Shown here piece by piece: positions 27,301-50,000 of a stretch of 64,000 bases of DNA. A program made the position numbers and the translations under genes. The first letter of the stretch is position 1. The number at the start of each line of letters is the position of its first letter. The stretch is from Cloeon dipterum (lineage: Eukaryota > Arthropoda > Insecta > Ephemeroptera > Baetidae): the NCBI RefSeq assembly GCF_949628265.1, contig NC_088790.1:24122545-24186544 (forward strand), given 5' to 3'. The notes under the pieces were generated by a model that worked only from the letters and a program-made list of their open reading frames with translations, searched no databases and was not told the DNA's origin.

Positions 27301-30300
27301 TTGAGAATACGAGGATTGAACAAAAGGTACTGAAATTTAAAAAGGTTTCAATAAAATAATAATAATTAATTTCGCCAGTTGCGTAAGCACTTATAGTGTT
27401 TGAAGCCGCCAACAGATGGCGCCACCGTATACTTTCGTAATAAATTTAATTTTTAGGCACTTCCGCTGCGATTTCAGACTCAATCCTGCTACGGTGCATT
27501 CTTCACTTAATACGTGTTCTTTTAACGTGCTGAAAACCATAATCAGTCCAGCCATTCGCCGTAGAAACGTTGGAAAATATTTTATGTTTCAAAATTTTGT
27601 TTTTGACGATTCTACGGCGATTGGCTTAACCGATTTTTGTTTTCAGAGCGTCAAAAGAAAGCATATTAAGGGAAGAATGCACAGTGGCAGGATTAAGTCT
27701 GAAATCGCAGCGAATAAGAGTAAAATTAAATTTATACGAAAGTATACGGTGGTGCCATCTGTTGGCGGCTTCTAAACGCTAAGGTCTTATACAACTGGTG
27801 TATTCCAACCTAATTTTATTGGCAATAATTTATTTTCTAAGTAAATAAAATATAAAATCCTATCTACTCTGTTATAAAGAAATAAAACTTTCAGGGCATT
27901 GCCAAGTACTGCAGCACAAGTTTTACAACTAATTTAGATGTCACGTGGACCAATGAAACAATTCTCCTGATACCCGAGGTGCAGAACTACCAGGATATCC
28001 AAATTCACCAATCGATCGAGCAGGACCAACAAATTTATTACAAGTCAGTGATTCCTCCTAAAACAAATTACAGGATAATTAATTAAACATTTTACCAGGT
28101 TTTTCGTGCCTGTTGAAACGCACTGGGCAACAATCAACATCAAAAATTGCGAGAACAACTGCCCGATCCAGGTTTACTGGCGGGCGCGGGCGTTGCCGCT
28201 AATCGATGAGGCTGAGTGAGTGCTCGTGTCCAACATTTGTTCGCCACTTTGCTCCCGTCAAGCGATGCAATTAATGCGGCCAGATAAATAAGCAATAAGC
28301 CATACTATATAGCTATAAGGATCGATTTGTCATGTCGCCATGGTTCACCTCACTTGACAAGTTTATCCCACTCGCAATTACAAAAAAAGGGAGGGATTTA
28401 CATTTTAAATAGGGGCTATTTTTTTTATTTTAAAACTAAATTTTAATACTCTTAGAGGTTGTATGATTCAAGGCATTTAATTTTATTAAAACCCATATTG
28501 ACCCACTTTATATAGCCACGTGCGCTTTTAATTTTAATGCAGAGGACGTTTAAAAATTAAAATGAAAAAAATTAAAAACAGAAAAAGAAATAAATACACA
28601 CGCCGGCACTATGCTATGAGATTGGAACGTTTATTTTTGCAAAATTTCAAATTTAAACAGAGAACACGTTGAAATTTGCCATGAATTTGAACTTTAAAAT
28701 TCACTGAAAAGTCGTAAAATGCAAAAATATCAAATTTTAATCTAAAAAAATGTTGTGGCACTGACGGTGAGACGTAAAGTTGGTTATACAAAATGAGAAA
28801 AGAGCAAAAATTATTGTTTGAATCATAAAATATGCGTCCAAAATGGTCGCCATTTGATTTAAAAATTTTACATTATCAGAATTATTTTTCCTGTTGATTT
28901 GATATCATTTTTTTTTCTTGTCACAAGGGGACTGAACTGCACCGGAAATATTAGCACATGCAGTACCGGATTCCTGCCTCTGGAAGGCGAGTGGCATTAC
29001 CTCACGATAGCCGCAGAGGCAAACACGACTTACTCTTTGAAGATAATCTACCACAGTAAAATACAAAAACAAACTTCATTGCACAATAATAAATTTAAAA
29101 ATATAAAATCCTTTCAGCCTGTGCGCAGGAGTACCCTGTGACCAAGTATTTCCTGACAAACGACCTGGACACGGGAAAGGTTTGCTCGTCCGTGTCCGAA
29201 GTGAGCAGATTCCGGATGCTCTTCCGCGGCTCAAAGCAGCACTTTGAAAAGGCCGAAGCGGAAGTGTGCTGGGACAGGGTGGGCCTCTTCCGCAGGTCCA
29301 TGTCGGCCAGTTTCGCCTACGAGTTCGACCTTCTGCCCGACGAAAACGGAACGAGCCCTCTAAAGCTGGAGGTGGCAACGGGACAGCCCACGATTCTCAG
29401 CTTCTACGTCAATCCGAAGCAGGACATCGGCGGCAATATGTGGCTTGACGTCGGAATGGACCCGAAAATGGTTAGGATTTTTTGACATGGAACTTTTGCA
29501 TGAAAGAAAATGTAATATTAGCATATTTAAATTATTTAAAAATGGTAAAAATTTAAAGTGAACAAACTAGAATATGGTAATTTCACCCCCCCCCCTATAC
29601 GTCTCGACTTTTTCCGCTCGACCGAGGATTCGCCCCCCGGCAACACCGGGGTGCACGGCCGCCTCGAGTTGCGGGCGTCCCCGTGACGTGCGGCAACCCT
29701 AGGGAGCGAGGCCACCTCGAGTTCGGGGCGTCCCCGTGACAGGTGGCAACCCTAGGGTGCGCGGCCGCCTCGACTTCGAGTGGTCCCCACTGCGTGTGGC
29801 AACCCTAGGGAGCGAGACCGCCTCAAATTCGGGCCGTCCCCGTGGCGTGCGGCAACCTTTGGGAGCGCGGCCGACTTAAGTTGGGTCCGGCCGTGTGGTG
29901 TCTGGCAACCCTAGAGTGCGCGGCCGCTTTTAGTTAGGGCAGTCTCTACGGCGTGTGGCAACCCTAGGGTTCACGGCTTCTTGGAGTTTGGGCCGTCCCT
30001 ATGGCGTGTGGCAACCCTAGGAGTCGTTGCCGCATTGAGTTTGGCCGTCACTATAGCGTGTGGCAACCCTATGAAGCGCGGCCGACTTAAGTTGTGGCCG
30101 GTCCTGTGGTGTCTGGCAACCCTAGAGTGCCCGACCGCCTTTAGTTTTGGTCGTCCCGATGTTGTCTGGCAACCCTAAGAGGCGTGGAAGACTTAAGTGT
30201 TAGGCGTCTGATGGGAGAGTGGCAACCCTAGGGTGGGCGGCCGCCTTGATTTTTGGGAGTCCCTACAGCGTGTGGCAACCCTATAGTGGTCGGCCGCCTT

Positions 30301-33300
30301 GAGTTCGGGCAGTCTCTACGGCGTGTGGCAACCCTAGGGAGCGAGACCGCCTCAAGTTCGGGCCGTCCCCGTGGCGTGCGGCAACCTTTGGGAGCGCGGC
30401 CGACTTAAGTTGGGTCCGGTCGTGTGGTGTCTGGCAACCCTAGAGTGGTCGGCCGCCTTGAGTTCGGGCAGTCTCTACGGCGTGCGGCAACCCTAGGGTT
30501 GGCGGCCACATTGAGTTTTGGCAATCTCTACGACATGTGGCAACCCTAGGTGGCGTGGCAGAATTTAGTGCTAGGCGTCTGATGGGAGAGTGGCAACCCT
30601 AGGGGGGCAGCTGACTCCAGTAGGGGGTAGCTACGAGTATCGGCCGCCCTACTCAGGGGCCTGACAAAACTTATTGGCGAACTCTGGGGATATGGCAACC
30701 CTAGGGGGGCAGCTGACTCCAGTTGGGGGTAGCTACGAGGATGCGGCCGCCCTGCGGCGTCATTTTCTACGACCCCACGCTAATGCCGACGCGAATTTCG
30801 GCCCGATCAGGGCTTCCGTTACGAAGCTAACCCCGGGGGTTGGCAATTTCGGGGCCCCGCCAGGCCCCTTTCCCGCGATATCCGACCCAGGGTCCCCGTG
30901 CTTGTCCGGCTCGCCTCGGCCGCCTCCCGCGCCTTCGCGAATCTCGCGCCGATCCGACGACCAACCCCGCGGGTGCCCCTCGTTCGCGGGGCTCCCGAGC
31001 GCCCCTCGGGCTTTCGCGGGCTCCCGCGACGACGGCGCCTAATTCCACGACCTCCGCGCTACGGCCCACTCGAATTTCGGTCCGATCGGCGCCGCTGTTC
31101 CCGAGCCGACACCGGGGGCGGCGACTTCGGGGCCCCGCCGCGCCCCCATCCCGCGCCCGGCGACCCCGGGTCCCTATGCTCGTCCGGCTCGCCTCGGCCG
31201 CCTCCGGCGCCCCCGCGAATCTCGCGCCGATCCGACGACCCGCCCCGCGGTTGCCCCTCGTTCGCGGGGCTCCCGAGCGCCCCTCGGACGACGCCGGGTT
31301 CCCGCGACGACGGCGCCCGACTCCGCGACCCGCGCGCCGCGGCCCGCGCGAACTTCGGCCCGATCGGCGCGGCCGTTCCGCAGCCACCCCCGGGAGCGGC
31401 GACTTCGGGGCCCCGCCGCGCCCCCTTCCCGCGATTTGCGACCGCGGGTGCCCGTGCTCGTCCGGCTCGCATCGGCCGCCTCTTCCACCCCCGCGAATCT
31501 CGCGCCGATCCGACGACCCTCCCCGCGGGCGCCCCTCGTTCGCGGGGCTCCCGGGCGCCCCGCGGACTTTTGCGGGGCGAACGCGCCCGCGCGGCGGCCT
31601 CCGGGGCGGGCCCCGGACCCGCCCTCCGAATTCGGGCCAAATCGTTAGACGAAAGTTTCTTCGGGGGCGGTTTCCGCCCCCTCGGGGGCGTCGGGCGCCC
31701 CCGCGCCTATTCGCGAAAACGCTCGCGGGGACCTCCCCGACCTCGCCCCGTCGCTAACTCGAGTTCGATTTCCGAGATTTTATTGTTTTTTTAATATATA
31801 GTAGGAAATTGCTTTAAACAAACTATATTGAATTTATGTTTTTGAACGGCTGTTTAAAATATTTATATAAAAATAACACGGAAATTTTTTATTTAATTAT
31901 AGATTGAACATTTAATGTTCCTTCAAGAAAATTAAGTATTCAACATCATTACAATTTTTTGAGTTGAATATTTCATATTATTTTTCTTATTTTTTATTAA
32001 TAAATTTTGTATTTTTCCCGTGTAATGATATTTATAGTTAAATAAATTTGTATTCTCGAGCCATGCTGACCTATAATTTTTTTTTATAAAACTGAAACTC
32101 TAAATAAAAATATTGCCACGAAAAACGTAGCTTTCTATATGCAACTAGCGCAACACACATGTCTTGCGATTGCCGAACTCTTGAAATTTCAGGCGTAATT
32201 TTTGAATTTCCTATTTTTCGTAGAAAACAACGGGCTACAATGTGACGTTCATCGTGTGCTTCAGCCACATGGAGCGGTTCAAGCCGAATTTCGACCACCC
32301 GAAATGCGACCCTGACGACTTCTACCTGCTGGAGATCAACGCCACCAAGCGGTACGCCAGGGCGGTGATCCCCTACCCTGAGCCGGGCACTTGGAACGTC
32401 GTCATTCAGCCTTTTTGCCACGAAAACAAATCGTGAGTGGAAGAAAAGTGGTTTATATGACGATTTAATTCATTCTTTTGGGAATTTTAGAAAAATCACG
32501 TGCCCAAACGAAACGTTGCCTTTCTTCTTCAGCATCATTTCCAGCGCTTGCGTCTACGGAAGCTGCGGTCCTTTAGGAAGGTGCAGCATCTCTCGGACCG
32601 CTGGATATAGTCTTTCCACTTGTATTTGCTCCGCAGGTATTAAAATAAATTGACAAAAATTATTCAGTAAAAATCAGATAGGAAAAAATTGATTTAAATT
32701 TGTTTTGGCTGTATTTTTATTTGGATTTTCTTGAAGTAAAAGCTCGATTATTTTTTTTAATTAAAATTTTAGGTTACAAGGGATGGGGTTGCACTGATGC
32801 CTCCGAGGCTGTGCCATACAGCGAGCTGCTCCTGTCGACCCTGCTGCTAACCCTGAGCAACCTGCTTTTCATTCCGTCCATCGTCCTGGCCATTTACCGA
32901 AAGTACTACACAGAAGCACTAGTCTACGTCAGCATTATGTTTTTCTCCACGGTAAAAAACATTTAAAAATAATTATATTTTCACTCGCTTTTTTATTAAA
33001 TTTCTTCTTCACTTTTTTCAGTTTTACCACGCGTGTGACGGCGTGGCCTACTCGTTCTGCTTAATTCGGCCGGACGTGCTGCAGTTCTGTGACTTCTACT
33101 CGGCCATCCTCGCCTTCTGGGTGACCATGATCGCCATGTCGGACGTGTCTCCGACCCTGACCTCGCTGTTCCACATGGGCGGCGCCATCGCCGTCGCTCT
33201 CGGTATCGAGTACGACCAGTTCGGAATCGCCGTATTCGCAGTGCCGGTCGCGTCTGGCGTCGTCATTTTAGTCATTTCCTGGGTAAGGACAATTTTTAAT

Positions 33301-47000: not shown

Positions 47001-50000
47001 TTTTATTAAGCTGTGTTGCGAAGTGAAAACATATAAATGTACAAACCATGATGAAGATTTTGCTGAGCTTCGCCAATCTTTTCATAACAGCCTGATAAAC
47101 GCACTTATAAACAAGTTAAGCTTTGCCAAACTCCTTTTTTAATCTCGATTGAAGCGTAATGGGAAATTTTGTTGGCTACTTTATCTCGTTACTGGTGAAT
47201 AATCTGCTAAATTAAGTGTAATGCGATGCTATTAAACAATTAAAATCATAAAAATAAAATAAACCCTCTTAATTGTGACAAAAATGATAGACATATAAAA
47301 ACATTTTGTGAAGAATAGTTAGTATTATTTTGTAATCAACGTTCACGTCAGTGACTTAATTTTTTCTTAACGAAGAATCAATAAAAGTTTTTATTTAATT
47401 AATTTAAATAACAAAGTATTTAAATTATAAATAATTTGTGCGGTTTTTAAGTCTAATTAAGATTTAAAAGATTAAATTTTAAGTAAATGTTCTTCATTGA
47501 TCGTAATTGCGTTAAAAATACAAAAAATTAATAAATGGAATTTTAGTAATTATCAAAAACTACATTTCTCAATGCGCTCTTTTTTAAAGTAATAATAAAA
47601 TGAAACGGCTTTAGGCTTTACAATAATTTTTTTACTACATGAAAACCCAAATATGAATTTATTATAAAACAAACGTCTAATAAAATTTCAGCCCCGATGC
47701 CAGCCAAATATAAAAACAAGAAGGGCAGCAAGCCACGAGGAGTGTCGAACCGCAACCGGGGGATCGAGTGGATTCGGGAAAACGCCTCGGACGGCGTCAT
47801 GTACTTCGCCGACGACGACAACACCTACGACATCAGAATATTTGAGCAGGTTCGTCTCACGTGCACAAGTATCTATTCATTATTTTATTTAAAAATTGCG
47901 CAATTTCAGATGCGACACACGAAGAAAGTGTCCATGTGGCCGGTGGGGCTGCTGACCAAGGTTGGGCTCAGCACGCCCGTCGTCAAGAACGGCCAGTTCC
48001 ACGGATTTTACGACGGCTGGATGGCCAACCGCAAGTTCCCAGTTGACATGGCCGAGTTTGCGGTCAGCGTCAAGTTTTTGCTGCAGGTTCGACAACATTA
48101 ATGATGAATTTAGAGGTTTTTTTGGGAATTTAAATCAGTTCAGTTTTTCCAATCCTCAAATGAGCTCAAATTATGCAATTTAAAGAATAGTGTGAGTCAC
48201 CAAAAATCGTCTAAAACGTTTAAAAAAGTTGTTTAAATATTGATTATTTACTTTTCAAAAATTTTCACCTTTCATTACTTTTATTTCGCCAAGTGTTTCT
48301 ACGATCACATTCAGTCATTTTACGTAAACAGGGTGATTTTGTTAGGTTAAATGAAGTTTTCATAGTCACTTTATACGAATTGTTAGTGTCTAAATTTTAT
48401 TTTTTAATACAAGAATCTGAATTTATCACAAAATAAACTTTAAAGATGACGAATAAAGGCAGTAAAAATTCGGCCCAAAAACCTCTTAAAGTTTTTTTTA
48501 TTTTCCTAGAATTTCCAAGCCTAACGAGGAATCTCAAGGTTTTAAATTTTCAATCTAACGCATTTTTATTTCAGCGGCCAAAAGCAACAATGCCTTACAA
48601 GCCAGGCTACGAGGAGGATGGCTTCCTGAAAAGCTTGGCGCCATTAGAACCTAAGGAATTAGAGCTGCTCGCCAACGGTTGTACAGAGGTAACAACATTT
48701 TTAGCACGAATTTAATTTGGAAACTGATAAGTAGGGTTGGGAAACTTAGACGATCGACTATTTTTTTCTGTGCTCATTTCTTTCCAAAAACATGAAATCT
48801 TCACGAATCATGAAAAATGATGACGATTGACACCGACTTAAAATCGTCTAAAACCGTCTAAATTGCCAATAATCGTCTAAACCCAACTTAAACAGTCTAA
48901 AACCGTCTAAAATCCCCCAAAAAAGGCCGTTTGCTGGGAAAATTCTCATATTTTATAACATAACAGAATGCAACGTTGATTTGCCGCGATTATTTAGGCT
49001 CCCAGAGCCATCTCGGCACGGGTGGATTTTTTTTCACCTGCACCCACCCACGAAATTCTAAATTTGAACCCGCACCTGCAGTGACGTGTGTTCCAAAAAC
49101 CCCGCAACCGCGGGTTTTTAAACCGGCAACTTCATATTATAAATTTTGCAATTCACCCTTAAGCGCTTAGTGTTCGAAGCCGCCAACTGTATACTTTCGT
49201 AATAAATTTAATTTTAAGGCACTTCCGCTGCGATTTCAGACTCAATCCTGCTACTGTGCATTCTTTACTTAATATGCTTTCTTTTGACGTGCTGAAAACC
49301 AAAATCAATCCAGCCATTTGCCGTAGAAACGTCGGAAAATATTTTAAATTTATAAAATTGTTTTTCACGATTCTACGCCGATTAGCTTAACCGATGTTGG
49401 TTTTCAGCATGTTAAAAGAAAAAAATGTAAAGTGAAGAATGCACGGTGGTAGGATTAAGTATGCAAGTGCCTTAAAATTGAAAGTATACGGTGGCGCCAT
49501 CTTTTGGCAACGTCACAAAATATTTCGTGGTTTTAGTGCATAAACCCGAAACCGCCCCGTACCCACCAGAAATGACAAAAAATTAAACCAACCCGCCACG
49601 CGGTGCAGTTAACCGCGGGTTTGAACCCGCATTCTTACACCCGTGCAGGGCTCTATTAGATAATATGTCGTCGGTGGTGTCATTTGGGTGACAAAAAAAT
49701 AATAAAAATTCATTGTATAAGTACATTTTCCTGCTTTTTCCAAGGAACTTTTGTAATATTTAATTGAATTATTTGGCCCATAATTTGAATAATTGAAAGA
49801 AAAACTGAAAAAATATTGAAAAAAGCATGAAATTGGCACCAGAAATCAGCCTTCTCAAAACAGTCTAAAACCGTCTAAATCACCAACAACAGTCTAAAAA
49901 ACAGTCTTTTTTAGGGCAAAAAGCGTCTAAAAATAGTCGACTATTTTGTACAAAAAAAACAGTCTAAGTTTCCCAACCCTACTGATAAGATTGTGTGTGC

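Follow-up and report, generated by a model that had tools for sequence, protein, structure and literature searches.

The 64,000-nt window of Cloeon dipterum DNA analysed here (the whole stretch, to which plain coordinates refer) contains a 2.2 kb GC-rich block within a 2.75 kb host intron. This block is a mobile element. The family to which it belongs is dispersed through the genome, has precise and constant ends, has moved recently and inserts with duplication of at most one base. The block is probably a copy of a non-autonomous, apparently non-coding Helitron-like (rolling-circle) element that carries two GC-rich satellite arrays and is mobilised in trans. The search space was the window's own genome, which comprises 190 Mb in 10 contigs, five of them large (C1 to C5, 33-43 Mb); the copy analysed in the window lies on C5.

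An earlier sequence-only reading of the window had proposed that the block resembles either the spacer of a ribosomal-type array or part of a mobile element. A search of the genome with the block as delimited in that reading gave at least 86 matches among those listed, and 28 loci were fetched (20 stretches of 10 kb and eight from the block search). In 20 of these loci the similarity starts with ACTAGAATATGG directly to the left of a C-rich run, with one changed base in locus L002 and one in L008, and TTGTTTTTTTAATATATAGTARGA (at most one mismatch) closes it in 18 of the 20. When the genome was searched with the ends alone, a left-end pattern of 21 bases (at most two mismatches) was found at 23 places and a right-end pattern of 24 bases (at most two mismatches) at 19 places; the reversed control gave no hit for either. 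Two left-end hits, at C2:1271315 and C2:4424388, were dropped as a duplicated stretch, 90.8% identical over 859 bp, in which the likeness crosses the motif; this left 21 places. Both ends occur together at 18 loci, of which C1 and C4 have six each, C2 four and C3 one, the remaining locus being the window copy on C5. Three places have the left end only, namely, C2:5664120 (not fetched), L003, where the right end differs, and L027, with a 350-bp match; L024 has the right end only. The 18 complete copies measure 1696-2535 bp from ACTA to GTARG and have a GC content of 0.645-0.695. In a MAFFT alignment with gaps excluded, the other 17 are 72-93% identical to the window copy. The termini are better conserved than the interior, with a mean identity to the window copy of 0.968 at the left terminus, 0.966 over the last 28 bp on the right and 0.78-0.93 in between. 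Judged by eye, the flanks of the 18 loci differ. The search of the genome thus returned dispersed copies with constant ends, and the proposal of a mobile element is further sustained by near-identical copies at unrelated sites and by two empty sites.

Recent movement is seen in the copies L009 (C1:34.35 Mb) and L010 (C4:30.21 Mb), which differ at 4 of 2534 aligned bases. Their best alignment spans 2537 bp at 99.8% identity, which equals the size of the element, and the other four alignments reported are internal. L005 (C1:6.94 Mb) and L009 show 14 differences in 2432 bases plus 103 gap columns, a number close to the 102-bp spacing of a repeat in the linker between the two arrays. For the empty-site test, the joined flanks of the 18 complete copies were compared with the fetched loci, and L013 and L014 were positive. 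The joined flanks of L014 are identical over 728 of 728 bases to another place in the same satellite. Six boundary choices were tried, and an exact fit was obtained only with ACTAG...GTAGG and CTAG...GTAGGA, each leaving one A; this copy sits in an A run of 7 in the empty and 8 in the filled state, so that by itself it would not decide whether the target is TT. At L013, the joined flanks match ungapped at 586 of 596 bases, and the junction fits best with one A kept (1 mismatch in 41, as against 11 in 40 with none kept and 8 in 42 with two). Taken together, the two sites mean that no duplication of two or more bases took place; a one-base duplication of A and no duplication at all cannot be told apart at them. 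The boundary A stands to the left of CTAG in all 18 complete copies and to the right of GTARG in 17. The base beyond the right boundary A is A in seven copies, T in six, C in three and G in two, and the longest sequence shared by the two flanks, boundary A included, is 0-4 bases, being a single base in 10 of the 18. On the minus strand the insertion pattern reads N^TC(C/T)TA...CTAG^T, with carets at the boundaries. The hosts of L014 (C4:36.20 Mb) and L013 (C2:37.34 Mb) are AT-rich satellites within 200 kb of contig ends, the former with a period of about 102 bp.

The window copy stands out from its surroundings as had been described, with a GC content of 0.675 against 0.21 and 0.24 in the intron to its left and right; in a 1-kb profile of the window, GC is 0.54-0.64 at the block and 0.26-0.47 elsewhere. 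Its limits, as given by the other copies, are 29566 and 31805 (ACTAGAATATGG...ATATATAGTAGG), 20 bp to the left and 27 bp to the right of the edges first assigned. The run of ten C (29586-29595), where the block had been said to start, is present, yet ACTAGAATATGGTAATTTCA precedes it, and its length and purity vary from copy to copy. The T-rich tract TTTTATTGTTTTTTTAATATATAGTAGG, said to end the block, is also present; judged by the other copies it is part of the element, and the true end lies beyond the edge that had been placed in it. On the minus strand the ends can be written as TC(C/T)TACTATATATTA...CCATATTCTAG. The host exons were read as intact and in phase, and this holds for the stretches tested: the intron is bounded by GT...AG in phase 0, as read off the sequence, and the translations on both sides contain no stops. 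The window outside the element has an observed-to-expected CpG ratio of 1.15, and the eight copies for which this ratio was computed have 1.11-1.18, with no sign of CpG decay in the element. The features of the element and its host intron are as follows.

29566-31806, minus strand: whole element with the boundary A on each side; net insertion of 2240 bp; ends constant in 18 complete copies and empty sites of two sister copies.
Same span on the minus strand, rolling-circle reading: TCCTACTATATATT...CCATATTCTAG, then T.
29566-29585, minus strand: left terminus, conserved in the copy comparison; putative 3' end of a rolling-circle element, ...TGAAATTACCATATTCTAG^T.
29586-29595, unstranded: run of ten C, variable among copies.
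29649-30602, unstranded: 53-bp GC-rich array; 17 units at 29649-30550 by Tandem Repeats Finder (TRF), a 159-bp TRF row extending to 30602.
30591-30784, unstranded: linker, containing two copies of a 50-nt segment, 96% identical and spaced 102 bp apart, by a repeat finder.
30785-31669, unstranded: 278-bp GC-rich array of 2.8-3 units, crossed by a 336-aa open frame with no coding constraint.
31778-31806, minus strand: right terminus, conserved in the copy comparison; would be the rolling-circle 5' end, TCCTACTATATATTAAAAAAACAATAAAA.
29471-32223, plus strand: host intron of 2753 bp, or about 513 bp once the element is subtracted.
29120-29470, plus strand: host exon stretch, open, ending in phase 0; no Pfam match.
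32224-32430, plus strand: host exon stretch, open, starting in phase 0; no Pfam match above the cut-off.

Both tandem arrays of the sequence-only reading were recovered. TRF reported 17.0 copies of the 53-bp unit (72% matches, score 634) and, at 30785-31568, 2.8 copies of the 278-bp unit (83%, score 1081), the top two scores among the 10 TRF rows of the window. The repeat finder followed the 53-bp register to 30626 and placed three 278-nt copies at 30836-31669. The two arrays had been called unrelated, and the 53-bp consensus indeed found no match in the 278-bp array. Unit numbers were surveyed in 19 copies, that is, the 18 complete ones and L003. In 18 of them the 53-bp array gives a longest single TRF row of 4.6 to 21.0 units, L022 having none, and 16 have a row of about 278 bp, the exceptions being L003, L004 and L022. 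Elsewhere in the window, TRF reported a short 10-bp tandem array, TAAAACCGTC, of 7.5 copies (48839-48912). A viral origin of the block was rejected, as one exact pattern of the 53-bp unit had no match in viral contigs.

The longest open frame of these 19 copies measures 236-402 aa. In a 1000-bp part over the 278-bp array with 75.5% GC, which cannot contain a frame longer than 333 aa, the longest frame of mononucleotide shuffles averaged 240 aa and 16% of 200 shuffles reached 308 aa. Open frames are long because GC is high, and frame length by itself does not settle the coding question. Along the 336-aa frame of the window copy, however, third codon positions vary most in none of 18 comparisons, the length of the 278-bp unit is not divisible by 3 and no Pfam match was obtained. 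A coding element was rejected on these three grounds, and the element is apparently non-coding.

The assignment to a class rests on the ends and targets of the copies and on published elements, for which four papers are cited from the excerpts available (PMC4067079, PMC5148889, PMC7492417 and PMC9957191). Canonical Helitrons are defined by a 5' TC, a 3' CTRR, insertion between A and T and the lack of a target duplication, and possess a palindrome of 16-20 nt about 11 bp from the 3' end (PMC4067079). In the present family, the minus strand starts with TC and ends with CTAG in 17 of the 18 complete copies each, a T follows the 3' end in all 18, and these three features together on one strand are those of canonical Helitrons under the same definition (PMC4067079). 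The lack of a target duplication agrees at the two empty sites, where a duplicated A and none look alike. Further support comes from one pair of related elements that abut head to tail, tandem insertions being known for Helitrons (PMC5148889), and from the Helitron Rep-type sequence PF14214 (Helitron_like_N), of which the genome holds 17 matches on C1, C2, C7 and C10. From these data we infer that the family belongs to the rolling-circle class.

Several observations weigh against this assignment. An A precedes the TC end in only 6 of the 18 copies, which departs from the canonical A^T target. No 3' hairpin was detected, since the 3' ends of all 18 complete copies fold no better than shuffled sequences (a fraction of 0.27-1.0 of 100 mononucleotide shuffles was as good); in the window copy, dinucleotide shuffles gave z values of +0.78 (75 nt) and +0.76 (45 nt), and its only palindrome is the interrupted GGTGAAATTACC. 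A subterminal inverted repeat is only patchily present among the copies, and L022 is distant from the others (69-74% identity). No family end motif (at most two mismatches) lies within 200 kb of a Rep match, the nearest being about 283 kb away. No DNA similarity was found between the family and the fetched Rep units, a comparison that left out the Rep matches on C2, at 36.38, 36.64 and 37.06 Mb, and the right ends of the units. The insertion mechanism is likewise inferred from footprints only. The missing hairpin is not fatal to a rolling-circle reading, since some Helitrons of Fusarium have none and use other targets (PMC5148889).

The Rep/helicase-like gene lies in repeated units of more than 12 kb (L029-L031 and L036-L043; C7:891800-911400, C1:3432500-3441500, C1:3446000-3451500 and C10). 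The PF14214 sequence on C7 has a multi-exon look, with Rep-like and helicase-like frames recognised by reading and not by domain search. The partly fetched C7 and C1 units both look multi-exon and are alike up to the right edge fetched, and the left-hand likeness of the units begins inside a roughly 112-bp tandem array that precedes the gene. The four Rep matches on C10 are 21-27 kb apart, and one C7 copy and two C10 copies are 99.85% identical over 3.3 kb.

The family could also be a non-autonomous Helentron (HINE/DINE type), that is, a member of the Helentron branch of the same rolling-circle class, with central satellite-like arrays and insertion into TT; we regard this as unlikely. In mite HINEs, subterminal inverted repeats of 12-15 bp are set 2-4 nt in from the 5' end and 38-60 bp in from the 3' end; these elements also have a 3' palindrome, insert at T-rich targets and, in some copies, carry tandem repeats (PMC4067079). 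Central tandem repeats, which are frequent and not obligatory in this branch, are present here, and the two arrays follow one another between short unique ends as in some Cg_HINE elements of the oyster (PMC7492417); a T flanks both minus-strand ends in 17 of the 18 copies. In seven copies (L005, L006, L007, L009, L010, L013 and L016), the best inverted match is an imperfect repeat of 27 nt, with 20 of 27 positions paired in L007 and L016; measured from the ends, its arms fall at 36-67 nt on the left and 38-65 nt on the right. In L002, L004, L011 and L022 the best match is its GCGACnnAGGAT-like core at about the same places. The repeat is absent in the window copy and in L008, L012, L014, L015, L017 and L018. 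Of 400 dinucleotide shuffles, 1 was as good for L007, 1 for L016, 16 for L002, 26 for L005, 49 for L013 and nearly all for L001, L012 and L017, the copies being related and hence not independent; the repeat of L007 and L016 thus beats all but one shuffle, and that of L005 or L013 is not beyond chance. This may be a decaying subterminal repeat that leans slightly towards the Helentron branch, but it lies about 38 nt inside both ends, as compared with 2-4 nt from the 5' end in HINEs (PMC4067079). None of the 18 complete copies has a 3' stem-loop that exceeds shuffled sequences, and the empty site of L013 keeps one A where a TT site would leave two.

More doubtful still is a non-Helitron class that makes no target duplication, for instance a Crypton-like element with a tyrosine recombinase or one of unknown type, of which the copies would be non-coding derivatives. 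The missing canonical hairpin, the failure to find a partner with the family ends and the one-base A duplication that cannot be separated from none would all suit it. However, TC...CTAG in front of a T is a Helitron-type combination, a Helitron Rep sequence exists in the genome, and hairpin-less Helitrons with other targets occur in Fusarium (PMC5148889). Quite improbable is a duplication-free route distinct from both Helitrons and Helentrons, with hairpin-less ends, a single-base target and GC-rich arrays that might act in copying, for example, as a replication or strand-stop element, instead of being cargo. The origin of the block as a captured piece of ribosomal DNA (rDNA) spacer or as an ordinary genomic satellite without defined ends, both considered at the outset, is very improbable. 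Two kinds of GC-rich tandem units in series do look spacer-like by eye, but the four occurrences found of a conserved 18S segment lie at C5:1263531-1441069, where none of the best-scoring block matches listed, at least 86 in number, falls; the window has no Rfam match, and every match that was fetched proved to be a dispersed element with fixed ends or a fragment of one. The four 18S rRNA positions show that assembled rDNA is present on C5. GC-rich repeats are error-prone in assembly, which would speak for an artificial join, but the same two ends recur in 18 complete copies at separate places, which together with two empty sites makes this hardly conceivable.

Under the Helitron-like reading, a Rep/helicase acting in trans would nick the minus strand at the TC end, on the right in the window. 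One strand would be peeled off as far as the CTAG end on the left and formed into a circle, which would then be inserted into AT-rich DNA on the 5' side of a T. Both GC-rich arrays would travel as cargo, and slippage or unequal exchange would alter their unit numbers from copy to copy. The window copy would have landed in antisense orientation in the intron, from which splicing should remove it; the exons are open and in phase.

Satellite-carrying non-autonomous Helentrons are already published, namely, DINE-TR1 of Drosophila, with satellite-like arrays (PMC9957191), and Cg_HINE of the oyster, and the present family differs from them in GC content and termini. Like it, Cg_HINE elements are dispersed, have no identified autonomous partner and consist of one kind of repeat cluster, or exceptionally two in series, between short conserved ends (PMC7492417). 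However, the oyster clusters average 35.77% GC and 7,151 arrays are counted (PMC7492417), as compared with 67% GC for the element here, 75.5% for a 1000-bp part over its 278-bp array, and 18 complete copies; in the present family, moreover, a 3' palindrome is not seen beyond chance and the subterminal inverted repeat is patchy. DINE-1 and DINE-TR1 are likewise non-autonomous and of rolling-circle type, and DINE-TR1 shares central tandem repeats, which in its case were amplified into satellites (PMC4067079, PMC9957191). Their 13-bp subterminal repeats near the 5' end were not found in the present family, and its target at the L013 empty site is a single T, not TT. Canonical Helitrons (Helitron1) share the TC start, the CTAG end, the T in the 3' flank and the lack of a target duplication, but not the absence of a 3' hairpin beyond chance or a 5' A confined to 6 of 18 copies. 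Some FoHeli elements of Fusarium are likewise devoid of the 3' hairpin and insert at other target bases, but FoHelis possess asymmetric terminal inverted repeats and coding copies (PMC5148889); in the present family the inverted repeat is patchily distributed, and no coding copy bounded by the family ends was found. No paper on a comparable GC-rich family was found in the literature excerpts searched; Repbase lay outside this search, and the family may be catalogued there.

The window copy seems to be part of a larger group of GC-rich elements whose ends are similar and which have repeats of the 53-bp or the 278-bp type in common. Variant left ends are ACTAGTATATGGTCAAATTCACCC in L019, L020 and L023 and ACTAGTCTATGTTC in L021, and L025 and L028 end in TTTTTTCATATAGTGTAAGA. 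ACTAGAATATGGTGATTCGG is the start of the element joined head to tail to the L008 copy, and the GC-rich middle of that element is a different one. The pair lies in a cluster of GC-rich elements at C2:31079650-31089400 (L008, L032 and L033), where the two subfamilies have one A in common and a frame resembling the reverse transcriptase of long interspersed nuclear elements, recognised by reading, is found beside a third, rearranged element. The variant copies L019, L020 and L023 (C3:8.87, 8.89 and 8.91 Mb) are about 20 kb apart and have similar left flanks, which suggests that they arose by duplication of a larger segment.

The family shows how a strongly GC-rich satellite of two unit types can scatter through an AT-rich genome, into introns, by way of a transposon. 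Furthermore, it offers a Helitron-like element whose ends lack the canonical Helitron hairpin, and its near-identical recent copies and clean empty sites make the link between rolling-circle elements and the origin of satellites testable in this genome.

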